Positions 10,445-20,044 of a stretch of DNA of 24,924 nucleotides are shown one piece after another. This DNA comes from a virus. The notes under the pieces are model-generated. The model was given only the letters and a program-made list of their open reading frames with translations. It made no database searches and was not told the origin of the DNA. The translations under genes and the position numbers were made by a program. Where the stretch lies: positions 1 through 24,924 of IMG/VR virus record IMGVR_UViG_3300042556_000915; one strand, given 5' to 3'. Position 1 is the stretch's first letter, and each line of letters begins with the position of its first letter.

Positions 10445-12196
10445 CTATCCTCCTAGTTGCGCTAGGATTGCCGCTATATCTGGTGGAGGAGTTGCCCCAG
10501 CAGGAGCAGCCTCACCTGGAGCACCCATCTGTTCTTGTGGGATTTCTTCTACAGGGGCACCTGGCTCAACCGCTGGGGACATCTGTGGTTGCTCTACTAC
10601 TTCAGGGGCCTCTAGTTCTTCTTTCTTGAAGATACCAAGCACTGCGTCTTCCACAGTAGTGCCCTTCTTGCGAGCATCAATAACTTTAGCAATTTTTTCT
10701 ACTAAGTCAGATGGGTCTTGTCCTTGAGTAGCCATTGCAGGTATTGCTTGAGTCATGGCACTAATTGCACCATTTAAGTTATCACGTAATCTTTCTATGT
10801 CAACTTGTTGTGTTTCTAAACCAACATTCATTGACCAAGGAAGTTCACGCATAACAAAGTCTTTAGATACTAAGCCAGCCTGTAATGCCTGTAGTGAAAA
10901 TATAAGTGCCCTAGATGGGTCTAGTCCAGACATCAAACCATAACGTACCTGTACGTGATAGTCGCTTTTGATGTCCTTGCCAGGCTTGTAGGTAATTTCA
11001 TATGGCGCACCTTGGTGCGTACCACGAACTGTCTTTTCATCATCGAAGAGTTTCTCATCCATCTTAAGACATAGAGAAAGAACATCTTCAAACGTGTCAG
11101 ACAAAACTTGTTGTCCTGTTTTGATTTGAGTATCAAAGCCACCCATAAGAGCCTGTACGCCTTGACCAGTGATTACACTTGCGTCAATGCTTCCTGTACG
11201 GCCTTCTGGATAACGTGAGCCAAGACGAATCTCACGCTCCAAAATATTTTGCTCAGTAAATGCAGCGGTAGGTAAATCTAATCCTACTCGTCTAATTAGG
11301 TCAGGGCGTTGCGAACGAATGATTGCATCTGGGCCGAAAGCAAATTCGTCAACATCATCTGGCAAAGCCAGAGGTGCCTGGACACTACGCTCTGCTGCTT
11401 GCATTGCAAGAGTGGCGAACTGTGCACGGGCTAGTTGCACCCAAAGTACATCATCGAATTGACCACGTGGTTCTTCATCTATGCCTGGTCTACGAGCAAT
11501 ACGTACTGTTAAATCACCAATTGGATTCTCAGTACGCTGAAGAACTAGATTCTTTCGAGAAGGCAAGAACAAAATAATTTGGTCTTTATCCTCATAGCGA
11601 ATCATTTCTAGTATTGCATTTAAGTCAGCAAATTCTCTTTGTCCACCCATAATCTTTGATTCGTATTCTGGGAAGTCAATGACTAATTCACCAACTGTTT
11701 TCATGTAGCGTTTCGCGTATGACACGCACCGTCCGTAGCGGTCAAATTCTGGGTAAGCACCCAAAGGGCTTTCTACTCGGATGCGAGGCAATCGCTCATC
11801 ATAATCTGGTTCTACAACAATTGGTAAGAAACCAAATGTGATGTACCAGTCTGCTCCCGTATACATTTGAGTCTGTAAACGGGAAGTCTGTACTATGTTG
11901 TTGACAATCATTGTGCGCTTGTCAGCAAAGTTGCGAGCACGGTCTTTAGTCGTATCGCTTGGAACACAGTTAAAGGAAGGCAGCGGTGCTAGAACTTCAG
12001 ATACGTCTCTAGCAGCAACATCAATGAAGTTAGCAATCATTGGCTTGGACATACCCTCTGGGAAGTAATCACCAAATAGGCTAGTCATTTCGCCACGGCG
12101 AACTTGTAGCACATCACCCATACGGGTATCACGTGCAGCGTAGCGTCTCTTGAGGTTCTCTACCTTGTTCGCTACTTCATTTATGCTTAAAACCAT
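10445..12196 (-). CDS. Portal protein
   Basis: The 583-aa product has the size and features of tailed-phage portal proteins, the dodecameric ring through which DNA enters and leaves the head. Visible signs are an N-terminal helical region (ANKVENLKRRYAARDTRMGDVLQVRRGEM), the segment IANFIDVAARDVSEVLAPLPSF, the wing-like domain with YPEFDRYGR, and a long helical C-terminal region with ERLRDNLNGAISAMTQAIPAM. The last 60 residues are Pro/Glu/Ala-rich and probably disordered. It follows the terminase by 9 bp and precedes the HslV-like gene by 1 bp. Assignment rests on overall pattern and the terminase-portal-protease order. Confidence 0.85.
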   Translation of the reverse strand: MVLSINEVANKVENLKRRYAARDTRMGDVLQVRRGEMTSLFGDYFPEGMSKPMIANFIDVAARDVSEVLAPLPSFNCVPSDTTKDRARNFADKRTMIVNNIVQTSRLQTQMYTGADWYITFGFLPIVVEPDYDERLPRIRVESPLGAYPEFDRYGRCVSYAKRYMKTVGELVIDFPEYESKIMGGQREFADLNAILEMIRYEDKDQIILFLPSRKNLVLQRTENPIGDLTVRIARRPGIDEEPRGQFDDVLWVQLARAQFATLAMQAAERSVQAPLALPDDVDEFAFGPDAIIRSQRPDLIRRVGLDLPTAAFTEQNILEREIRLGSRYPEGRTGSIDASVITGQGVQALMGGFDTQIKTGQQVLSDTFEDVLSLCLKMDEKLFDDEKTVRGTHQGAPYEITYKPGKDIKSDYHVQVRYGLMSGLDPSRALIFSLQALQAGLVSKDFVMRELPWSMNVGLETQQVDIERLRDNLNGAISAMTQAIPAMATQGQDPSDLVEKIAKVIDARKKGTTVEDAVLGIFKKEELEAPEVVEQPQMSPAVEPGAPVEEIPQEQMGAPGEAAPAGATPPPDIAAILAQLGG

Positions 12197-12205
12197 TATT
12201 CGCCT

Positions 12206-14065
12206 TTACATATAGATGACATTGGGCTGATACTTCATCTCGTCAAGGTTGACTATGGACTGAGATTCGTATGCTTGCCGTGTACTCCAACGGTCACCTG
12301 TGTGATAAGACCGCTGTTGATTCTTCTTCATTATTTCTTTGGCACGTATCTCGCAAAACCATAGTGCCATAACTAAGTCGGTTGGCCCCTTTGTGTCGGG
12401 TGACCAAGTAATTAACTGATTTACTAAAGCCTTGAAGTGCTCATTGTCAGCAGCAGGAAGTTCAATCAAATTATTTTTTTGATGCTTGCCATTGTTAACA
12501 GTACCAAACAGGTCTGACATGGCAGCCACACCAAAGCCAGTGTCCCACTTATTGTTACCAGTAAACTGGCCTGAGAACTTAACACCCTTAACTGCTAGGA
12601 ACTGACGGAAGTCCTCATCTAAAGCGTAGGCTTTCTGATGAGCGTTAGTTTCAATCCTAACCTCTGCTGGTTGATACATGTCAATCCAGCGAGAAATCAA
12701 ATCTCTAATCTTGCCAGGTGTTGGGTCTTTCATGTTGTAAGCATCTAGCACGTATCGCTTACCAGTCATCCTGTCAATGCTGTACATAATCGCTGCGGTC
12801 TTACCTGCCATAGCAGGGTCAAGACCCATGATGGTGTAGAACTGGCCTTCTTGCTTGAGAGGCCCAGCCTTACGCATACGATTGATAGAAGCATTAACTG
12901 ACACTAATGGGAAGATTGCATCAGACTCAACATCTTGTTGCTGATACACCATAGCCCAAGTGTTAGGGGTTACTTCAGACCTGCGCTGGAATAGCGTTGG
13001 TCCATCCCATTTAGGGTAGTCCCCATTCTCATCTGGTTCTGTATCTGGCTCACCATCCCAAGGACGGTCAGACTTAGGCCAGAGCGTAACCCAATCCTGC
13101 GGTTTATCTGTAATCTCCAGAACCGCTGGCATTGCTAAGTATGTGAAGGGAGACTGCCCACCTTGCCAATGTTCGGGTTGGCGGATTTCACGATAGAGGT
13201 CGTTAGACGAAATTCGTGTTCCAACTATTAGAAGTTTACCATTCTTACCAAGACGGGTAATGACTTCCTTCTGTAGCCAGTCAAGTTGCTTAGCCCATTC
13301 ATGGGCATTGCTGGTAACTACAACGTCATCAAGAATAATTAAATCCGCACGTGCACCGTAGATTTGGCCACCTATACCGATAGCCTCAACTGTTGGGTCC
13401 TTTTGGTCCGAGTCACGGGCTTCAGTGCCTAGGTAGATGCTGTTGGCTTTCCATTGGTCAGCATCTTGTTTCCATCCACCTGCAGGTCCGAAGGTAGCCT
13501 GTAACTTCGCCCAGCGGGGATGTGCTAATCGCTGCTTAATTGAGTAAAGGAACTTAGCAGCAGAATTCTGTGTTTTAGAAACAATCATAATCCTAGTGTT
13601 TGGGTCTTTACAAATTCTGTAGACACAATAGTTGATTGTGATTGTGGTTGACTTTGCGTGCTCAGGGGGCACGTTTACTAGAAGCCTATTTGGGCTGGCT
13701 TGCTGGAAGACCATGTTGGGGTGTAGCCAGGAAGGTTGCTTGCCCTCAAGAATATCTACCCAGTTGCGCTGATGGGGGTAAACTTTCATGTTGAGGAACT
13801 CTTCTGAGAAGTCCTCGAACTCTATAGTAGAGGTTGAGTGAGCACCACGCTCACGGGCTTTCTCGTAAACCGAGCGAGCATCCCTCTCACGGTCACTGAA
13901 GGCTTTGTCTCTGGCTCGCCAGGTATAGACCGTTTGAAGTTTTACCCCAGCAGCCTTGGCTGCGTCTGATACACCTACACCATTGCTGATGAGTGCTAGG
14001 TAAGCCTCTTGGTTCTTCTTCTGCTTCTGGGCAAAGTGATGGTTGTCTCCACTACCTGCTGCCAT
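12206..14065 (-). CDS. terL: Terminase large subunit (ATPase-nuclease), with N-terminal helix-turn-helix
   Basis: The 619-aa motor protein pumps DNA into the prohead and cuts it. The ATPase part shows a Walker A variant PPEHAKST (residues 133-140), Walker B LIILDD (242-247) and a coupling motif VGTR (about 281-284). The RNase H-like nuclease shows GLDPAM with Asp416, IETNAHQK with Glu472 and DLVMALWF with Asp563 as likely metal ligands. Residues 20-55 (ISNGVGVSDAAKAAGVKLQTVYTWR) look like a helix-turn-helix usually found in the small subunit. No separate small terminase gene is visible beside it. The start ATG at 14065 has AAGGAC about 10 nt upstream. It is the first gene of the leftward operon. 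Confidence 0.95.
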   Translation of the reverse strand: MAAGSGDNHHFAQKQKKNQEAYLALISNGVGVSDAAKAAGVKLQTVYTWRARDKAFSDRERDARSVYEKARERGAHSTSTIEFEDFSEEFLNMKVYPHQRNWVDILEGKQPSWLHPNMVFQQASPNRLLVNVPPEHAKSTTITINYCVYRICKDPNTRIMIVSKTQNSAAKFLYSIKQRLAHPRWAKLQATFGPAGGWKQDADQWKANSIYLGTEARDSDQKDPTVEAIGIGGQIYGARADLIILDDVVVTSNAHEWAKQLDWLQKEVITRLGKNGKLLIVGTRISSNDLYREIRQPEHWQGGQSPFTYLAMPAVLEITDKPQDWVTLWPKSDRPWDGEPDTEPDENGDYPKWDGPTLFQRRSEVTPNTWAMVYQQQDVESDAIFPLVSVNASINRMRKAGPLKQEGQFYTIMGLDPAMAGKTAAIMYSIDRMTGKRYVLDAYNMKDPTPGKIRDLISRWIDMYQPAEVRIETNAHQKAYALDEDFRQFLAVKGVKFSGQFTGNNKWDTGFGVAAMSDLFGTVNNGKHQKNNLIELPAADNEHFKALVNQLITWSPDTKGPTDLVMALWFCEIRAKEIMKKNQQRSYHTGDRWSTRQAYESQSIVNLDEMKYQPNVIYM

Positions 14066-14282: not shown

Positions 14283-14365
14283 GGGGGGAAATAACTATGA
14301 AAAATATTTAAGGTGAGTAGAGGGGGTAGGGGGGGGTGTGCGAATTAAGCATAGGGGGGTCCCCC
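14283..14365 (+). other. G-tract cluster with quadruplex potential
   Basis: Runs of six, five, eight and six G occur at 14283-14288, 14322-14326, 14329-14336 and 14354-14359. The last run is directly followed by T and five C (14361-14365), forming a short inverted repeat. On the plus strand four G-tracts in about 77 nt could fold into a G-quadruplex, although two of the loops are long. It borders the DnaA-box cluster. Nothing else in the window has comparable G-runs apart from one terminator stem at 19686. Confidence 0.45.
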
Positions 14366-14366
14366 T

Positions 14367-14563
14367 TTATCCACAGGTTATCCACACCTGTGTGTATCTT
14401 GTGAATAACTATTACATTTTTTTGCATTGTTACATCAAATACATGTAATAAAGTTAAATATCCGAATGCTGTCTATTCAGTAACCATTCTCAAGACCCCT
14501 AACCCTGTGGATAACTTGTGGATTATTGTTCACCTGTTGTTCACCTATTGTTCACGTGTTCAA
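14367..14563. other. Candidate replication origin: DnaA boxes plus 11-bp iterons
   Basis: Perfect DnaA boxes TTATCCACA occur at 14367-14375 and 14378-14386 (plus orientation, 11 bp apart). The variant TTATTCACA is at 14400-14408 (minus). A perfect box at 14506-14514 and a near-perfect one (TAATCCACA) at 14517-14525 are both minus, again 11 bp apart. Three direct repeats TTGTTCAC[C/G]T follow at 14526, 14537 and 14548, exactly 11 bp apart. The 14409-14465 segment between box groups is strongly AT-rich and could be the unwinding element; it includes ATTACAT/ATGTAAT inverted copies. Consensus TTATNCACA is established for bacterial DnaA. Use of host DnaA by this phage is inferred from box number, phasing and position. 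Confidence 0.68.
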
Positions 14564-14625: not shown

Positions 14626-14785
14626 AGCAGGAGACGGGGCCGAATCCTCTCGCACTTGGCAACTAGAGACCCAAGCAATACGCCGAAAAGGCAATAACTA
14701 AACAGGGGGAAACATCCGAGTGAATCGGGGACATCGTGCCCCGTTTCGCTTGATGTCTTAAGGCCTTAAGTCTTACGGCGTCAAG
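14626..14785 (+). ncRNA. Structured 5' leader of the early operon
   Basis: Several short complementary stretches are visible. CCAAG (near 14628) can pair with CTTGG (near 14657), GCC-GAAAA-GGC forms a small hairpin near 14681, and CGGGG/CCCCG flank an 8-nt loop near 14726. A stem CTTGATG/CGTCAAG at 14749-14785 encloses the perfect palindrome CTTAAGGCCTTAAG. The last is the first member of the CTTAAG leader family described further downstream. Segments GGGGGAAAC and GAGTGAATC vaguely recall conserved stretches of the ydaO-type c-di-AMP riboswitch, but the 3' conserved GTCAGCTAACC block is not present as such. I therefore call it only a structured leader. It ends at the start-associated AAAGGATGA (14798-14806). 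Confidence 0.45.
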
Positions 14786-14810
14786 TGATACCAATCGAAA
14801 GGATGACCAA

Positions 14811-15470
14811 ATGAAAACAGCAACACTCGCCCCAATAGTAGGGGCCTTAAGTGAGGCATACGCCACAATCCAACAGCGCGAAGGCTTACCGCCTGCCGTA
14901 GTGATTGTGAAGCGAGACCCTAGGGCATGGGGACACTTCACGCCCTCCAAATTGTGGAGCGCGAAAGATGGCGAGAAACTTCACGAAATTATGATAAGCG
15001 GTGAGAATCTCGCACGCGGTGCCCGCGCCGTTCTAGGGACCCTGCTACATGAGGGGGCACATGCGAAGAATCACGCCGAGGATGTAAGAGGGACCGACAC
15101 TAATGGCCGACATAATAAGAAATTCAAGGCACAGGCGGAGGCCTTCGGCCTCACAATAACCGAGAATAAAAACGGCTGGAGTGAAACCGAGGTGAGCGAC
15201 CAGTGCGCCGAGAGGTGGGCCGATGTTCTCGACCTAATCGAACAGGGCATAACAATCTACGCCCAAGGGATGGCAACAGTTAAGACCAAGGGAACAAGCG
15301 GAGGGACCGAGGGAGGCGAAGAGGGAGGCGAAGACACGCCGAAACCAAGAAACAAGAACAACCTCAAAGCAACCTGCAAATGTGAGAACATAATCCGACT
15401 AAGCCAAAAGGTCTTAGAAATCGGGGTGACTTGCAAGAAATGCGGAGAAGATTACAAAGCCACCGAGTAA
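14811..15470 (+). CDS. SprT-like zinc metalloprotease with C-terminal zinc ribbon
   Basis: The 219-aa product contains the metalloprotease motif HEGAH (residues 80-84) within LGTLLHEGAHAKNH, with a downstream GRHNKKF that may supply the third metal ligand. The C-terminus has a CKC...CKKC zinc ribbon (Cys189, 191, 208, 211). A Gly/Glu-rich linker (GTSGGTEGGEEGGED) joins the two. This is the SprT/Spartan-like layout; family members cut DNA-bound proteins, and the phage substrate is unknown. It is the first rightward gene, behind the early promoter and the start-associated AAAGGATGA sequence. By hand count its first 120 nt after 14820 are about 56% G+C against about 42% in sampled late-gene lines, which hints at separate ancestry. 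Confidence 0.75.
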   Translation: MKTATLAPIVGALSEAYATIQQREGLPPAVVIVKRDPRAWGHFTPSKLWSAKDGEKLHEIMISGENLARGARAVLGTLLHEGAHAKNHAEDVRGTDTNGRHNKKFKAQAEAFGLTITENKNGWSETEVSDQCAERWADVLDLIEQGITIYAQGMATVKTKGTSGGTEGGEEGGEDTPKPRNKNNLKATCKCENIIRLSQKVLEIGVTCKKCGEDYKATE

Positions 15471-15485
15471 AGAGGGGGGAAGATT

Positions 15486-15515
15486 CAGCAGGGGTTCGCC
15501 CCTGCTGTTTCTTCT
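15486..15515 (+). terminator. Rho-independent-like terminator after the SprT-like gene
   Basis: Nine-bp perfect arms CAGCAGGGG and CCCCTGCTG flank a TTCG loop (15486-15507), followed by TTTCTTCTTC. A stable UUCG-capped stem with a T-rich tail is a good intrinsic terminator, possibly partial so that downstream genes are made in lower amounts. The CTTAAG leader hairpin begins within its tail. Confidence 0.7.
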
Positions 15516-15552
15516 TCTGTCTTAAGACAGAAGAACACAACAAAAAGGATGG
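15512..15552 (+). promoter_or_regulatory. CTTAAG-hairpin leader, copy 2
   Basis: A perfect 24-bp palindrome at 15512-15535 is centred on CTTAAG (arms TTCTTCTGTCTT / AAGACAGAAGAA). It is followed by AAAGGATGG (15544-15552) and the ATG of the 88-aa gene at 15559. The core CTGTCTTAAGACAG is shared with copies at 15865, 16319, 16579, 16975 and 17969. The outer arm sequence here (TTCT/AGAA) differs from the others yet remains complementary. Confidence 0.7.
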
Positions 15553-15558
15553 TTCAAA

Positions 15559-15825
15559 ATGGAAACAAGACAACCAACAGCACAAGAGCAATTTATCGAG
15601 GATTTTCTTCTAGTCGCTCAAAACGATGAGGCCACGTTCTTCTCAATTTCTGAGGTGTTAATAGGTTACGAGGAAAACCACTACGAAGGCGGGCAAAGAT
15701 TAGAAGAATGGGTGGAGATTCATTACGCCCAAGAACTAAAGGAAAATTTGCTACTCTCTCAGTTACTCAGGGGCTGGGGTGGCGACACCTGGGCAAAAAT
15801 TGCCAAGGAGTTTCTAACGGATTAA
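15559..15825 (+). CDS. Hypothetical small acidic protein, 88 aa
   Basis: The product METRQPTAQEQFIEDFLLVAQNDE... is acidic and probably helical, with no membrane segment and no motif I recognise. The start follows the AAAGGATGG start-associated sequence at a normal spacing. It stands alone between two hairpin leaders, each preceded by a GC-rich hairpin, so it looks like an independently regulated cassette in the early accessory region. Function unknown. Confidence 0.7.
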   Translation: METRQPTAQEQFIEDFLLVAQNDEATFFSISEVLIGYEENHYEGGQRLEEWVEIHYAQELKENLLLSQLLRGWGGDTWAKIAKEFLTD

Positions 15826-15837
15826 GTCGGAAGGTTT

Positions 15838-15859
15838 GGCAGGGACTTAGTGCCCTGCC
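15838..15859 (+). terminator. Terminator-like hairpin after the 88-aa gene
   Basis: Arms GGCAGGG and CCCTGCC (7 bp) enclose an 8-nt loop, followed by TTTCCTCCTG. The T-tract is short, so termination may be partial. It is placed exactly as the 15486 hairpin is relative to its CTTAAG palindrome, which suggests the two elements travel together. Confidence 0.5.
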
Positions 15860-15864
15860 TTTCC

Positions 15865-15900
15865 TCCTGTCTTAAGACAGGAACAAAACGAAAGGATGAA
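15865..15900 (+). promoter_or_regulatory. CTTAAG-hairpin leader, copy 3
   Basis: An 18-bp perfect palindrome, TCCTGTCTT joined to AAGACAGGA (15865-15882), is followed by AAAGGATGAA at 15891-15900 and ATG at 15903. Compared with copy 2, the outer pairs change from TCT/AGA to TCC/GGA, keeping complementarity. Confidence 0.7.
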
Positions 15901-15902
15901 AA

Positions 15903-16307
15903 ATGGCAACACGAAGCCGAATCGGAATCAAAGAAGAGAGCGGAGAGGTTCGCTCGATTTATTGCCACTTCGATGGATACCCTGAAGGTGTAGGCGTAGT
16001 GCTTTCCAAGCATTACCAAGACGCCGACAAGGTGCGCCAGTTGATGGATTTGGGAGACCTTTCCACATTAGGGGCAGAGATTGGAGAGGTTCAAGACTTC
16101 AGCAATCCAAACCAAGACTGGTGCCTTGCCTATGGTAGAGACAGAGGAGAGACCGCCACAGAGAGCAGAAAATACGAATCTGAATTCAGTTGGTGGATAG
16201 ACTCAAGTAACGGTTGGATTGACTATCTCTACCTTTACAAAGATGGTAAATGGTCTTATTGGGCTAGTTTAAGATTGCAACACATGCCTGAAGGCACAAA
16301 ACTTTAG
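15903..16307 (+). CDS. Conserved phage protein of unknown function ('MATRSRIGI...YCHFDGYPEGVG' family)
   Basis: The 134-aa product has the signature start MATRSRIGIKEESGEVRSIY, then CHFDGYPEGVGVVLSKHY, GDLSTLG, and a late YGRDRGE. I recognise this as a family that recurs in phages and some bacteria; no biochemical role is known to me. The protein looks like a compact beta-rich domain with a Trp-rich C-terminal part (SWWIDSSNGWIDYLYLYKDGKW). The start is supported by the AAAGGATGAA leader just upstream. It is bounded on both sides by CTTAAG hairpin leaders, indicating a single-gene cassette. Confidence 0.75.
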   Translation: MATRSRIGIKEESGEVRSIYCHFDGYPEGVGVVLSKHYQDADKVRQLMDLGDLSTLGAEIGEVQDFSNPNQDWCLAYGRDRGETATESRKYESEFSWWIDSSNGWIDYLYLYKDGKWSYWASLRLQHMPEGTKL

Positions 16308-16313
16308 TGCGTG

Positions 16314-16382
16314 CCAATCATCTCCTGTCTTAAGGCAGGAGTTGGTTGGGGTGAACTAAATCAGTACACCTAGAAGGATGAA
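16314..16382 (+). promoter_or_regulatory. CTTAAG-hairpin leader, copy 4 (two abutting hairpins)
   Basis: Hairpin I (16314-16349) pairs CCAATCA with the TTGGTTGG arm through one T-T mismatch and then CTCCTG with CAGGAG around CTTAAG. Hairpin II starts at the next base (16350-16370): GGTG/CACC with inner ACT/AGT, and AACTAA within the loop side. AGAAGGATGAA (16372-16382) follows immediately, then ATG at 16387. The zero-nucleotide junction between the hairpins would allow coaxial stacking. Confidence 0.7.
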
Positions 16383-16386
16383 AAAA

Positions 16387-16563
16387 ATGGATAATGTATT
16401 AGAGTTAGAAATCTACCCAAGCGGTTGGCTAGATTTCAACCTTGCTCGTGAGTTGTATGTTGGTGTTGACTTGAAGGCTGTTGTTGTGGTAGTTTTGGCA
16501 GTAGCAACAATTAAGTTCATAGCACCACGAATTAGAAAAGCAAGAAGAATTACACGCCGATAG
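16387..16563 (+). CDS. Small single-span membrane protein, 58 aa
   Basis: The product MDNVLELEIYPSGW... has one hydrophobic segment at about residues 26-46 (VGVDLKAVVVVVLAVATIKFIA). A strongly basic tail (PRIRKARRITRR) follows, predicting the C-terminus inside the cell. There is no signal cleavage site. I chose the ATG at 16387 by analogy with the other leaders; an in-frame ATG at 16378 lies inside the ribosome binding sequence. It could be a holin-like or membrane-anchoring accessory protein, but nothing in the sequence decides this. Confidence 0.65.
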   Translation: MDNVLELEIYPSGWLDFNLARELYVGVDLKAVVVVVLAVATIKFIAPRIRKARRITRR

Positions 16564-16570
16564 TTGCGGA

Positions 16571-16641
16571 TGGTTGGTGTTCTGTCTTAAGACAGGACAT
16601 CTTCCACCTACAACTAAACAGATGTAGGAAGAAAGGATGAA
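16571..16641 (+). promoter_or_regulatory. CTTAAG-hairpin leader, copy 5 (two abutting hairpins)
   Basis: Hairpin I (16571-16606) has basal TGG/CCA, a TT/TT internal loop and a 13-bp apical stem ending in CTTAAG. One T-G wobble lies in the GTTCTG/CAGGAC arms. Hairpin II (16607-16628) follows without a gap: CCTACA/TGTAGG with a loop starting ACTAA. GAAAGGATGAA is at 16631-16641 and ATG at 16646. ACATCT (16597-16602) could alternatively pair with AGATGT (16620-16625), which would disrupt both hairpins and is a possible switch. Confidence 0.72.
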
Positions 16642-16645
16642 ATAA

Positions 16646-16786
16646 ATGAGTAAGGAAGTATGGGCCTCATCAGTAAGCGCAGAAATGACTAAAGGAATGA
16701 CGGATAACGAGATAGAAATACTTATCGCTGATTTAGATGACGCGGTAATGCTAGTTTGCCAAGACTACGGGATAGGGGCTAACTAA
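16646..16786 (+). CDS. Hypothetical small acidic protein, 46 aa
   Basis: Reads MSKEVWASSVSAEMTKGMTD... and ends VCQDYGIGAN. It is acidic and helical, with no recognised domain. The start is well supported: GAAAGGATGAA of leader copy 5 ends 4 nt upstream. Its TAA overlaps the ATG of the next gene (TAATG), so the pair is coupled. Function unknown. Confidence 0.7.
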   Translation: MSKEVWASSVSAEMTKGMTDNEIEILIADLDDAVMLVCQDYGIGAN

Positions 16787-16962
16787 TGTTAGATGAAACT
16801 ACGGAAGGCGACATTCATAAAATGATTGACCTTTTACATGACACTAATGTAAAACTTTATTTATGTCAGATAGATGATTACGTTCCTTATTACAGGGATG
16901 GATTAAGACGTGTTCAAGATTTCTTATTGAGTTTAATAAACGAGGGACATGTTTCTGATTAA
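16786..16962 (+). CDS. Hypothetical small protein, 58 aa
   Basis: Reads MLDETTEGDIHKMIDLLHDTN... and ends SLINEGHVSD. It is mostly helical and acidic, with one cysteine and no membrane segment. Translation is coupled to the 46-aa gene through TAATG. The stop lies 8 bp before the basal stem of the next CTTAAG leader. No family is recognised. Confidence 0.68.
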   Translation: MLDETTEGDIHKMIDLLHDTNVKLYLCQIDDYVPYYRDGLRRVQDFLLSLINEGHVSD

Positions 16963-16967
16963 AGGTG

Positions 16968-17034
16968 GATGATTAACTTCTTGTCTTAAGACAGGAAGTT
17001 TTTCACCTGCAACTAAGCAGGAAGAAAGGATGAA
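16968..17034 (+). promoter_or_regulatory. CTTAAG-hairpin leader, copy 6 (two abutting hairpins)
   Basis: Hairpin I has basal pairs TGA/TCA (16970-16972 with 17003-17005), a TT/TT internal loop and a 13-bp apical stem centred on CTTAAG with a single T-G wobble. Hairpin II (17006-17021) abuts it: CCTGC/GCAGG with loop AACTAA. GAAAGGATGAA (17024-17034) precedes ATG at 17039. The internal loop lies at the same distance from the centre as in copies 5 and 7. Confidence 0.75.
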
Positions 17035-17038
17035 CAAG

Positions 17039-17080
17039 ATGTACGATTACAAGATAAGAATAGGAGTAAATAAGCGATGA
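17039..17080 (+). CDS. 13-codon leader ORF, relic or duplicate of the 17252 gene start
   Basis: ATG at 17039, directly behind the GAAAGGATGAA leader, reads MYDYKIRIGVNKR and stops at TGA (17078-17080). Its stop overlaps the next gene's ATG (ATGA). The first eight residues MYDYKIRI are identical to the start of the 55-aa protein at 17252, and 24 of the first 27 bases match. It may be a truncated duplicate, or a short peptide whose translation delivers ribosomes to the 17077 gene. An in-frame ATG at 17030 would add MNK. Confidence 0.5.
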   Translation: MYDYKIRIGVNKR

Positions 17081-17259
17081 ACTTTTATTACATAACACTT
17101 AACTATGAATACTTTACAATAAATACTTGTGTTGACGCAGACACAGAAGAAGAGGCCAAGCGGCGGGCTTTGGGGTTATTAGATACTCAAGGTATTAACT
17201 TAGGTACCCCGCCTTATGGTTATGAAGTCGAGTTGGAAGGTAGTTACTCTGATGTATGA
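17077..17259 (+). CDS. Small protein, 60 aa, beta-strand/helix type
   Basis: Reads MNFYYITLNYEYFTINTCVDADTEEEAKRRALGLL... The pattern of an alternating hydrophobic strand followed by an acidic A-DxEEEA helix occurs in many small phage proteins. The 62-aa protein at 18758 has the same layout. Its start overlaps the 13-codon ORF stop by 4 nt and its end overlaps the 17252 gene by 8 nt, so it is embedded in a coupled chain. Function unknown. Confidence 0.68.
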   Translation: MNFYYITLNYEYFTINTCVDADTEEEAKRRALGLLDTQGINLGTPPYGYEVELEGSYSDV

Positions 17260-17419
17260 CTACAAGATAAGAATACGTGAAGCCAACGGGTGCTATGAAA
17301 CTTTCAACGAGTCTAATGGTGAGTTGGCTTTCGCTGATACTCTAACCGAGATAGCCAAGTACGCTATTAGTAATGGTTTAGGCTTAGAGTTTGAAGATTG
17401 GGATGATGATGATGACTAA
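17252..17419 (+). CDS. Hypothetical acidic protein, 55 aa
   Basis: Reads MYDYKIRIREANGCYETF... and ends EFEDWDDDDD. I took the start at 17252 because MYDYKIRI is also the start of the short ORF at 17039 and because the 8-bp overlap with the preceding gene is modest. An in-frame ATG at 17216 would give an implausible basic extension inside the upstream gene. The poly-Asp tail is encoded by GATGATGATGAC, which also supplies start codons for the next gene in another frame. No family is recognised. Confidence 0.65.
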   Translation: MYDYKIRIREANGCYETFNESNGELAFADTLTEIAKYAISNGLGLEFEDWDDDDD

Positions 17420-17744
17420 TCAAATTCCACAGACATTACTTGACCGCCTTTGGTATGAAGTTTTTGGCAGTAGTATGACGCCAAGATTTCTTGAAGAGTT
17501 AAAGTTTATCAACGGAAATTGGGAGTCTGCTGACGCTGTAAAAATTTTATTTAGTGAGGATGAAGACGAGGACAAAATAAAAACTAAAACTATCACACAG
17601 ATGGATTTGTTTTGGGCCTGGTTGCAATTAGTAGAGAGTGGATGTTATCATTGTGGTAGTTACTCAGTTGGTGACCTTGAATCTCTTGACTCATGTTCTC
17701 ACATAATAATTCAACAAGCATTGTGGGGGGAGGTAAAATACTAA
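17403..17744 (+). CDS. Hypothetical protein, about 113 aa
   Basis: The start is ambiguous. ATG codons at 17391, 17403, 17406, 17409 and 17412 are all in frame because they overlap the poly-Asp codons of the previous gene. I report 17403. The product (TNQIPQTLLDRLWYEVFGSS...) is acidic and has aromatic-rich segments (MDLFWAWLQLVESG) and a CYHCGSY pair that might bind metal. Its TAA overlaps the next ATG by one base. No domain is recognised. Confidence 0.62.
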   Translation: MMMMTNQIPQTLLDRLWYEVFGSSMTPRFLEELKFINGNWESADAVKILFSEDEDEDKIKTKTITQMDLFWAWLQLVESGCYHCGSYSVGDLESLDSCSHIIIQQALWGEVKY

Positions 17745-17956
17745 TGGCACTACCAATCTTAGAGAAGCACACACAAATGGAGTTAACAGTTAATGTATCC
17801 GCTTGTCAGATTTTTGAGAATGAAGGAAGGTACACGCTGTATTCGGTGGAGGTGTATGACTCAAACAGCGATAGCGTGGTACCTCTAGGCTCGTCTCAGT
17901 TAGAAAATCTAGCCGAGGCAATAGCCGAAGCGTTCTCAACACTTCGCATAAATTAG
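17744..17956 (+). CDS. Hypothetical protein, 70 aa
   Basis: Reads MALPILEKHTQMELTVNVSAC... and ends AEAFSTLRIN. It has strand-rich middle segments (RYTLYSVEVYDSNSD) and a C-terminal acidic helix. The start at 17744 overlaps the previous stop (TAATG) and is preceded by GGGGGGAGG about 10 nt upstream, a strong ribosome site. A longer reading from 17693 would begin inside the upstream gene and is less likely. Leader copy 7 begins right after its stop. Confidence 0.66.
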   Translation: MALPILEKHTQMELTVNVSACQIFENEGRYTLYSVEVYDSNSDSVVPLGSSQLENLAEAIAEAFSTLRIN

Positions 17957-17959
17957 TTG

Positions 17960-18041
17960 CGGATGATTGAAGTTGTGTCTTAAGACAGAACTTCTTTCAT
18001 CTGTACCTACCGTGGGTATGGAATAAAAATAAAAGGATGAA
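17960..18041 (+). promoter_or_regulatory. CTTAAG-hairpin leader, copy 7
   Basis: Hairpin I is a 13-bp apical stem (17969-17994) with one G-G mismatch. Below it is a TT/TT internal loop at 17967-17968 and 17995-17996, then a basal stem GGATGA/TCATCT reaching about 17961-18002. Hairpin II (18006-18021) pairs CCTACC with GGTA(T)GG but lacks AACTAA. AAAAGGATGAA (18031-18041) precedes ATG at 18046. The 5' sequence TTGCGGATG is shared with copy 5. Confidence 0.7.
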
Positions 18042-18045
18042 CAAG

Positions 18046-18231
18046 ATGACGATAAGAGAAGTTGAATTACCGCTTACTAACTTACAGATTAAATTACATA
18101 AGGAACTTAAAGTGGTAGAAAAGTGGCACGATAATACAGATGGTTGCGATAGTAACTCTCACTACACCGAGGGCAAGGCAGATGGTATTCGCCTAGCCCT
18201 CAAACTAATTGAAAAAGAAAATAAACGATGA
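18046..18231 (+). CDS. Hypothetical protein, 61 aa
   Basis: Reads MTIREVELPLTNLQIKLHKEL... and contains a Trp-His-Asp stretch (EKWHDNTDGCDSNSHYTEGKADG) followed by a helix. The start follows AAAAGGATGAA of leader copy 7; an in-frame ATG at 18037 lies in that sequence and would only add MNK. It is the first of a chain joined by ATGA overlaps. No family is recognised. Confidence 0.66.
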   Translation: MTIREVELPLTNLQIKLHKELKVVEKWHDNTDGCDSNSHYTEGKADGIRLALKLIEKENKR

Positions 18232-19685: not shown

Positions 19686-19707
19686 ATTCCCCCCGTGAGG
19701 GGGGAAT
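19686..19707. terminator. Strong intrinsic terminator-like hairpin
   Basis: Perfect 9-bp arms ATTCCCCCC and GGGGGGAAT flank a GTGA (GNRA-type) loop. AT-rich sequence follows on both sides, including a second hairpin at 19708-19732 with 10-bp arms GTATATATTA/TAATATATAC. This closes the accessory/WhiB operon and may work in both directions. Confidence 0.72.
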
Positions 19708-19734: not shown

Positions 19735-19820
19735 AAGAATTAGGTTAGTAGTTGTTGCGTGTAAGTTATTCATCCTTTCTTACGCAAACCTCCTCCTCTC
19801 CGACTGCTAACCTAATTCTT
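19735..19820. repeat. Long inverted repeat enclosing an inverted start-associated sequence
   Basis: Perfect 14-bp arms AAGAATTAGGTTAG (19735-19748) and CTAACCTAATTCTT (19807-19820) are followed inward by AGT/ACT pairs. Further in, an inner stem TTGCG..TAAG pairs with CTTACGCAA. The apex holds the reverse complement of AAAGGATGAA (19769-19778), the start-associated sequence otherwise found only before early genes. On the minus strand that ATG opens a 40-codon frame running back to about 19656, which I do not call. The element sits between the terminator and the exonuclease gene. A degenerate CTTAAG half-site (GCCTTAAGACAGG, near 19823) and the ribosome site AGGAGAGG follow. Confidence 0.6.
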
Positions 19821-19846
19821 TTGCCTTAAGACAGGAGAGGAAACCT

Positions 19847-20044
19847 ATGGCAATAGAAATCAACGGCAAAACTTTGCCTGAACACATAAGTTATTCAAGT
19901 CTAACGACTTGGTTATCGTGTGGACATTTGTATTTATTAACTCGAATCATGACAATAGAAGAAGAACCTAGTGCTTGGTTATTCGGTGGTAGTGCTGTAC
20001 ACAGAGCCACAGAATTGTATGACAAGCAGAGAGAGGGAGAATGA
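19847..20044 (+). CDS. Cas4/RecB-like PD-(D/E)XK exonuclease, N-terminal part (split gene)
   Basis: The 65-aa product (ISYSSLTTWLSCGHLYLLTRIM...SAWLFGGSAVHRATELYD) corresponds to the N-terminus of the Cas4-like exonuclease common in actinophages. It carries the first Fe-S cysteine (Cys25) and the conserved His of the GGSAVH motif (His52). Catalytic Asp, Glu/Asp and Lys are absent here; they lie in the separate ORF at 20382-21026. Its TGA overlaps the ATG of a transglycosylase gene by 4 nt, so the interruption is clean. The two parts could assemble into one enzyme, or this part could be a remnant. The gene has an AGGAGAGG ribosome site. Confidence 0.75.
   Translation: MAIEINGKTLPEHISYSSLTTWLSCGHLYLLTRIMTIEEEPSAWLFGGSAVHRATELYDKQREGE

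Follow-up and report, generated by a model that had tools for sequence, protein, structure and literature searches.

Early phage genes with structured leaders and a shared ribosome-binding tag: a probable antisense RNA partner encoded ahead of the replication operon

Introduction

What reads a short tag that recurs at one early gene start after another, and what is the role of the hairpins in front of it? The question is raised by a freshwater bacterial virus, record IMGVR_UViG_3300042556_000915, a stretch of 24,924 bases with a guanine plus cytosine (GC) content of 42%, the whole of which is called the window here. Seven leaders precede its early genes, an arrangement that was confirmed and proved more extensive than first described, and each ends in a start-associated sequence (SAS) at the ribosome-binding site; farther downstream, ahead of a Cas4-like gene, a hairpin loop displays UUCAUCCUUU, the exact complement of the SAS. 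The leaders are probably 5' regulatory RNA elements, and a phage-encoded antisense RNA probably pairs with the ribosome-binding tags of the whole early regulon.

The tag and the loop that matches it

AAAGGATGA ends all seven leaders and stands at no other gene start, and AAGGATG on the plus strand is confined to the seven leaders and one coding site (18342). A preliminary description of this DNA had placed AAAGGATG(A) just before the start codon in six leaders and in a divergent seventh; it was recovered in all six, copy 4 reading GAAGGATGA, and in the seventh at 14798. The tags, with their predicted duplexes with the loop, are as follows.

14798-14806, plus strand, SAS 1, AAAGGATGA, before the SprT-like gene starting at 14811; duplex -15.1 kcal/mol
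15544-15551, plus strand, SAS 2, AAAGGATG; gene start 15559
15891-15899, plus strand, SAS 3, AAAGGATGA; gene start 15903; duplex -17.3 kcal/mol
16373-16381, plus strand, SAS 4, GAAGGATGA; duplex -12.9 kcal/mol
16632-16640, plus strand, SAS 5, AAAGGATGA; gene start 16646; duplex -18.5 kcal/mol
17025-17033, plus strand, SAS 6, AAAGGATGA; duplex -18.3 kcal/mol
18032-18040, plus strand, SAS 7, AAAGGATGA; gene start 18046; duplex -12.3 kcal/mol

The candidate antisense RNA sits in the non-coding stretch between the early operon and the Cas4-like gene, after a terminator-like hairpin that would close the early operon. L numbers, here and below, are loci of related phages used for comparison.

19689-19704, plus strand, terminator-like hairpin CCCCCCGTGAGGGGGG, also in L011 and L091
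19735-19822, plus strand, candidate anti-SAS RNA with outer stem 19735-19754/19801-19820, then TT; 5 pairs with a double change
19766-19778, plus strand, hairpin loop UUAUUCAUCCUUU, complement of the SAS; the 10-nucleotide complement AAAGGATGAA is unique in 10 kb
19789-19801, plus strand, CCUCCUCCUCUCC stretch, complementary to the ribosome site GGAGAGG of the Cas4-like gene
19847-20044, plus strand, Cas4-like gene (N part), fixed neighbour of the anti-SAS RNA in the compared lineages

The outer stem measures 18-20 base pairs, and 18 of its pairs are 100% paired in five sequences, the relatives being L011, L006, L091 and L092. UCAUCCUUUC is identical in these four although the flanks diverge and the stems change by compensation. 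The loop UUAUUCAUCCUUU contains the exact complement of AAAGGAUGAA. Duplexes of the loop with the SAS range from -10.5 to -18.5 kcal/mol and are stronger than those of the SAS with the 16S tail, for which the sequence generally known from actinobacteria was used, at six of the seven leaders. To regard AAAGGATGA as a plain ribosome site, as had been done, is incomplete: it is a lineage-specific tag with a cognate, putatively antisense loop at 19766-19778 that the preliminary description had missed.

Co-variation of tag and loop across lineages

Related lineages carry another SAS (GGAGACA, GAAATGGAG, CAAAGGAGA, GGAGGAAG, ACAGGAGAA and others), and in many of them a loop at the matching place is complementary to the lineage's own SAS. 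The L065 group has a leader of the same kind with the tag AAGGAGACAAA, and at the L065 locus the sole sense-strand GTCTCC lies in a hairpin loop at the matching place upstream of the Cas4-like gene. Further cases were found by eye, namely a loop UUCUCCAUU for the tag GAAATGGAGAA in L042, ACUCUCCUUUCU for AGAAAGGAGA in L012, CUCCUGU for ACAGGAG in L118, and UUUACUCCAUUUC at the corresponding place in L030.

A scan with the Cas4-like protein added 80 loci, mostly new. Candidate tags for each genome were limited to k-mers enriched directly ahead of start codons, and the complement of the chosen tag was sought upstream of the Cas4-like gene; an automated first pass had taken AT-rich hairpins for the loop in several loci, and this start-region test was used in its place. 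Own complements of 7-11 nucleotides were found in most tagged lineages and lower values in shuffled regions, with P<=0.01 in 14 of 25 loci, which are not all independent. Over 22 lineages the longest own complement averaged 7.09 nucleotides versus 5.46 (standard deviation 0.31) with the regions exchanged, none of 20,000 permutations being as good, and in the ten strongest lineages it averaged 9.1 versus 6.4. Where the complement reaches at least 7 nucleotides, the anti-core occurs nowhere else in the upstream sense strand searched (up to 10 kb), and its loop sequence is mostly unpaired. The SAS and the loop co-evolve, and base pairing between them is therefore implied.

Phage E7, cultured on 'Candidatus (Ca.) Planktophila' strain LanE-43, carries such a pair as well. 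Its tag ACAGGAG stands before about six minus-strand genes and a few plus-strand genes. The complement, CUCUCCUGUCC, is displayed by a plus-strand hairpin upstream of the Cas4-like gene, at about 31630-31690 of record OX376640. The loop is on the strand opposite most SAS copies, and most of its targets therefore lie on other transcripts. The hairpins of E7 and of its L118 relative have about -30 kcal/mol each and differ in their stems. E7 and LanE-43 form a cultured phage-host pair in which the proposed SAS-loop pairing can be tested.

The leaders as RNA structures

The six palindromic cores noticed earlier are present, with centres at 15523.5, 15873.5, 16331.5, 16588.5, 16987.5 and 17981.5, and a further core lies at 19821, ahead of the Cas4-like gene. 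With up to three mismatches, CTGTCTTAAGACAG has 11 matches versus 1.45 expected, and none of 100 shuffles gave as many. Several leaders start at the stop codon of the preceding gene.

14726-14788, plus strand, leader 1: GC hairpin 14726-14743, then long hairpin 14746-14788 (divergent member); fold z -4.5
15470-15523, plus strand, leader 2 hairpin A, TT/TT internal loop and UUCG apex; covariance-model match 22.4 bits; fold z -6.5
15513-15534, plus strand, leader 2 hairpin B with the CTTAAG core; 5' arm shared in part with the 3' arm of hairpin A
15821-15876, plus strand, leader 3 hairpin A, TTT/TTT loop; covariance-model match 24.1 bits
15865-15882, plus strand, leader 3 hairpin B, CTTAAG core
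16304-16359, plus strand, leader 4 hairpin; covariance-model match 25.3 bits; fold z -4.1
16560-16617, plus strand, leader 5 hairpin, starting at the upstream gene's stop codon; 73.9 bits (in training set); fold z -4.1
16959-17016, plus strand, leader 6 hairpin; covariance-model match 74.4 bits (in training set)
17953-18010, plus strand, leader 7 hairpin; covariance-model match 69.3 bits (in training set)

The common plan consists of an outer stem UUAG/CUAG, a 2x2 loop, a conserved lower stem GCGG/CUGC and an A.C mismatch, above which come three covarying base pairs (UGA/UCA, UGG/CCA or AGG/CCU) and a UU/UU internal loop. The fold is topped by an apical stem of about 10-11 base pairs, almost free in sequence, usually with a UUAA tetraloop. 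Two leader types were distinguished: leaders 4-7 have CTTAAG at the apex, and in leaders 2 and 3 the CTTAAG hairpin B is a second hairpin, adjacent to hairpin A, whose 3' arm is overlapped by the 5' arm of B, so that A and B may be mutually exclusive. The TT/TT loop 13 base pairs from the centre had been described for copies 5-7, where it is found, but it is not confined to them, since a loop of this type also occurs in copies 2 and 3, in the separate upstream hairpin (15470-15523 and 15821-15876) with an apex other than CTTAAG. The first hairpin of leader 1 is terminator-like, and its two-hairpin plan is shared by L011, L006 and L008. As a separate observation, hairpin B of leader 2, with its CTTAAG core, and the extended hairpin A compete for one pyrimidine stretch (15470-15534), and the two could form a switch with two states that lies behind a terminator-like stem.

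Covariation was measured in a plain MAFFT alignment, not fitted to the fold, of ten leaders from four phages. Paired cells made up 94.5% of this alignment versus 36-50% with the partner slid; double-sided changes were seen in 31 cells versus 10.9 in shuffles; and the covariation score was 0.472 versus 0.242 in shuffles and at most 0.148 when slid. A covariance model built from the ten leaders matches further leaders in L065, L050, L056, L061 and L055 (E values 7e-15 to 3e-7), phages whose TerL is only about 55% identical, and also L149, L151 and one leader in L169; over all related phages the E values go down to 1e-15. On the sense strand, G.U pairs outnumber the mirror A.C at stem positions by 72:4, or 46:4 without one fixed wobble column, in an alignment that was fitted to the model and hence leans towards structure. 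The fold is also kept without the CTTAAG palindrome at L056:861-919, L006:8229-8286 and L169:3031-3086.

The leader fold is a real RNA structure of the sense strand. The earlier argument for selection on RNA structure is borne out by covariation within and between phages, the sense-strand excess of G.U and the fold kept without the palindrome, and the outer arms named at that time do pair, part of them via G.U. Its focus on CTTAAG fared less well: the cores are present but are a dispensable part, and the idea of CTTAAG as essential was dropped because leaders without it exist in L056, L006 and L169. A reading of the leaders as promoters was dropped as well, promoter-like sites in the region numbering 11 versus 11.8 expected, which is chance level. 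Pattern matches in L007 and L088 and matches in L095-L099 and L101 were set aside as chance or coding. An Rfam search gave no relevant match, with one at chance level only, and no family membership with the P1 c4-type antisense RNA.

Proposed mechanism

Each leader consists of a stem-loop at or just after the upstream stop codon, followed by the SAS that holds the ribosome-binding site, and the structured leader RNA upstream of the Cas4-like/replication operon shows the SAS complement in its hairpin loop. The sequences establish the covarying fold, an SAS at every leader, a single complementary loop in a constant position and the co-variation of loop and SAS. In the mechanism proposed from them, the loop would pair with the SAS in trans and block ribosome binding. 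Transcription of the replication operon would then turn the early leader genes down, presumably in this direction and with this timing, as an early-to-middle switch; most likely, the antisense RNA represses the early regulon when the replication operon is switched on. The leader hairpin probably insulates its gene from ribosomes finishing the preceding one, so that translation of every gene would require the SAS of that gene. Alternatively, or in addition, the hairpin may be a processing site cut by RNase III. The functions listed earlier (translational control, processing, a protein site) can be narrowed to translational control through a putative antisense RNA acting on the SAS.

A broader model, which has about an even chance of being correct, is that a family of actinobacterial phages runs its early genes as an RNA regulon. 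Every early gene would have an insulating hairpin and a lineage-specific tag, and a single phage-encoded antisense RNA, transcribed together with the replication operon, would bind each of the tags and switch the regulon off. Tag and loop would co-evolve as lock and key, the pairs of related phages would be incompatible, and the same logic may explain part of the cluster K SAS. If the antisense explanation is right, one viral RNA controls the translation of a whole regulon, a ready lock-and-key set of tag/antisense pairs is at hand, and such pairs might underlie interference among related phages whose hosts belong to the most abundant bacteria of fresh water.

Alternative explanations

In the explanation by processing, the hairpins are RNase III-type sites at which the polycistronic early transcript is divided into mRNAs of one gene each, their ends protected, as happens in T7, and the SAS is just a strong ribosome site. 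In its favour are the intergenic hairpins of about 22-27 base pairs, whose symmetric internal loop has a fixed place roughly one helical turn below the apex and whose structure is kept while sequence varies, but the SAS-loop co-variation is left unexplained and the short CTTAAG hairpins B are below the usual RNase III length. It is rather unlikely; as to the hairpins, it is compatible with the antisense explanation, and both can be true together. A DNA operator, at which a dimeric phage regulator (repressor or stoperator-like) binds the TGTCTTAAGACA palindrome with the hairpins as a by-product, would suit a core that is conserved more than the apical stem and repeated genome-wide (16 versus 1.4 expected in the window; 30 versus 1.1 in L109), inside genes too (19060, 20705) and so not unique to leaders, and would suit relatives with other repeated palindromes near gene starts. 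Against it stand the covariation of the outer arms, compensatory changes and sense-strand G.U pairs included, the several leaders in which the fold is present and the palindrome absent, and the lack of any excess of sigma70-type promoters in the region. A DNA operator alone cannot account for a fold of this kind. Neither the SAS nor the loop is explained by it, and it is improbable.

Action in cis only, the loop sequestering or mimicking the ribosome site of its own operon and matching the SAS since both match the host 16S tail, draws on the C/U-rich loops, on a second stretch CCUCCUCC complementary to the Cas4-like gene's own site, and on SAS-like sites at the Cas4-like gene in E7 and the L065 group. 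It has a low probability: judged as canonical sites, the matched tags are often poor (AAAGGATGA, GAAATGGAG, GGAGACA), the loop follows the tag and not the 16S tail, and the site of the Cas4-like gene itself is unlike the SAS in the window, L138, L143 and L163. A small gene on the opposite strand, using the reverse-complement SAS as its ribosome site, was suggested by a complement that reads AAAGGATGA and then an ATG-containing frame. It was rejected as extremely improbable, since the minus-strand frames are short or run through the terminator and differ wholly between lineages, and the element lies in a hairpin loop with covarying stems.

Several points weigh against the antisense explanation itself. 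The production, timing and repressive effect of the loop RNA are inferred from sequence. The SAS search required at least three copies per genome and used simple open reading frame calling. No SAS-loop pair was found at 9 of the 25 tested loci (L160/L029, L161, L136, L127, L168, L183, L185, L195 and L190), most of which are also without a clear SAS. For an SAS close to the canonical AGGAGG, the match of a C/U-rich loop is in part a matter of composition (L162, L167, L169, L179, L182). Contact of the window loop with the ribosome site of the Cas4-like gene itself is also possible (-11.7 kcal/mol). Finally, the CTTAAG apex is more conserved than the fold requires and is over-represented outside leaders, and the core may have a second, DNA- or protein-level function.

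Relation to known systems

Hairpins that are RNase III sites lie between the early-operon genes of phage T7; hairpins likewise lie between the early genes here, but T7 has neither a ribosome-site tag nor a cognate antisense RNA. At cluster A stoperators, the immunity repressor binds to DNA sites that are short and asymmetric; the core in the window is repeated genome-wide, yet leaders keep the RNA fold without it. S. aureus RNAIII has C-rich hairpin loops that pair with ribosome sites. Through C-rich loops, mycobacterial 6C/B11 RNAs pair with many mRNAs at their G-rich ribosome sites (PMC10470900). By its complementarity, the C-rich loop of the window would be comparable in facing several ribosome sites, whereas these RNAs are host-encoded, with host targets and no dedicated co-varying tag. 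Phage antisense RNAs that block a ribosome-binding site are c4 (P1/P7), which does so from hairpin loops, and sar (P22) (PMC12197685). Judged by sequence and predicted fold, the window phage RNA resembles them in a loop complementary to a ribosome-binding region; they have a single target (ant), whereas here one loop would serve at least seven gene starts via a common tag, loop and tag co-evolving. Antisense control of ribosome sites is already known, and it is the scale and the tag/loop co-evolution that are unusual; the literature searched yielded no phage regulon in which a tag and an antisense loop co-evolve.

The SAS of actinobacteriophages has been a puzzle since 2011, and here a candidate antisense partner was found via co-variation across many lineages. 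In cluster K and Microbacterium cluster EF phages, many non-structural genes carry a conserved SAS at their ribosome site and a second element immediately before it (PMC3203893, PMC7302621). Whether the SAS binds phage RNA or protein was left open in 2011 (PMC3203893), and its role is still called unknown in 2024-25 papers. The authors found no support for RNA pairing of the cluster K inverted repeats (PMC3203893), and later work placed SigA promoters in the cluster K extended SAS (ESAS) (PMC11373665). The likeness to cluster K drawn in the preliminary description therefore holds for the layout, with a tag at the ribosome site of many early genes (all seven leaders), mostly in one orientation, and not for the element: the window tag is AAAGGATGA and not the consensus GGGATAGGAGCCC or GGGAAAGGACCCC, there is no DNA similarity to named phages, and a 17-bp inverted repeat with a SigA promoter contrasts with a covarying RNA fold and promoter-like sites at chance.

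Close to their right end, cluster K mycobacteriophages have a conserved non-coding region (177 records; L201, Anaya 59699-60059; L206-L213) with a hairpin whose loop is complementary to the SAS in the K1-type phages Anaya, CrimD and Amelie. Pixie, Kratio, ZoeJ, Ekdilam, Cain, Yuna, Oscar and SirPhilip yielded no SAS-complementary loop. Of these, Ekdilam and Cain have a different loop and Yuna, Oscar, SirPhilip and Pixie have none, the SAS being identical where checked (Ekdilam, Cain, Pixie). No such hairpin loop was found in the cluster EF phage AnnaSerena. Cluster K as a second proven case was rejected, since only K1-type loops match and other K phages with the same SAS do not; it is a lead.

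Genome, host and minor features

The left arm of the window is on the minus strand and includes TerL (12206-14065) and a gene read as portal (10445-12196), among others. In the right arm, SprT-like, WhiB, Cas4-like, DnaB-like and Toprim/primase genes lie on the plus strand. OX376640 and OX376641 are the nearest named phages by TerL and the Cas4-like protein, record OX376640, labelled LanE43-AprE7, being phage E7. E7 and F5 are the first phages cultured on freshwater 'Ca. Nanopelagicales' (PMC10202952), and the host of the window phage is therefore likely an actinobacterium. DNA searches against named phages gave no match for the leader region, near or distant, nor for the antisense region, and a scan with the SprT-like protein returned no viral relatives. 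The host search in genome contigs gave a single match, a contig of a metagenome-assembled genome labelled beta-proteobacterium, probably mis-binned phage DNA.

CTTAAGAC is about 12- to 27-fold over-represented in the window, L109 and L106, also within genes, and other family members have different repeated palindromes near gene starts (GTACCCGTANGGGTAC, TGTCTAGTACNCCTAGACA, GTTTCTAATAGAAAC). TGTGA-N6-TCACA sites (CRP/GlxR-type), absent from the window, occur upstream of early genes in L109 (7025, 7883, 8618), L106, L112 and L115. Behind leader 6, the 13-codon frame MYDYKIRIGVNKR (17040-17081) duplicates, in truncated form, the beginning of the gene at 17254 (17254-17419). The divergent intergenic region at 14365-14560 holds three TTGTTCACC repeats at 11-bp spacing and several TTATCCACA-like boxes, and is likely an origin or early control region.

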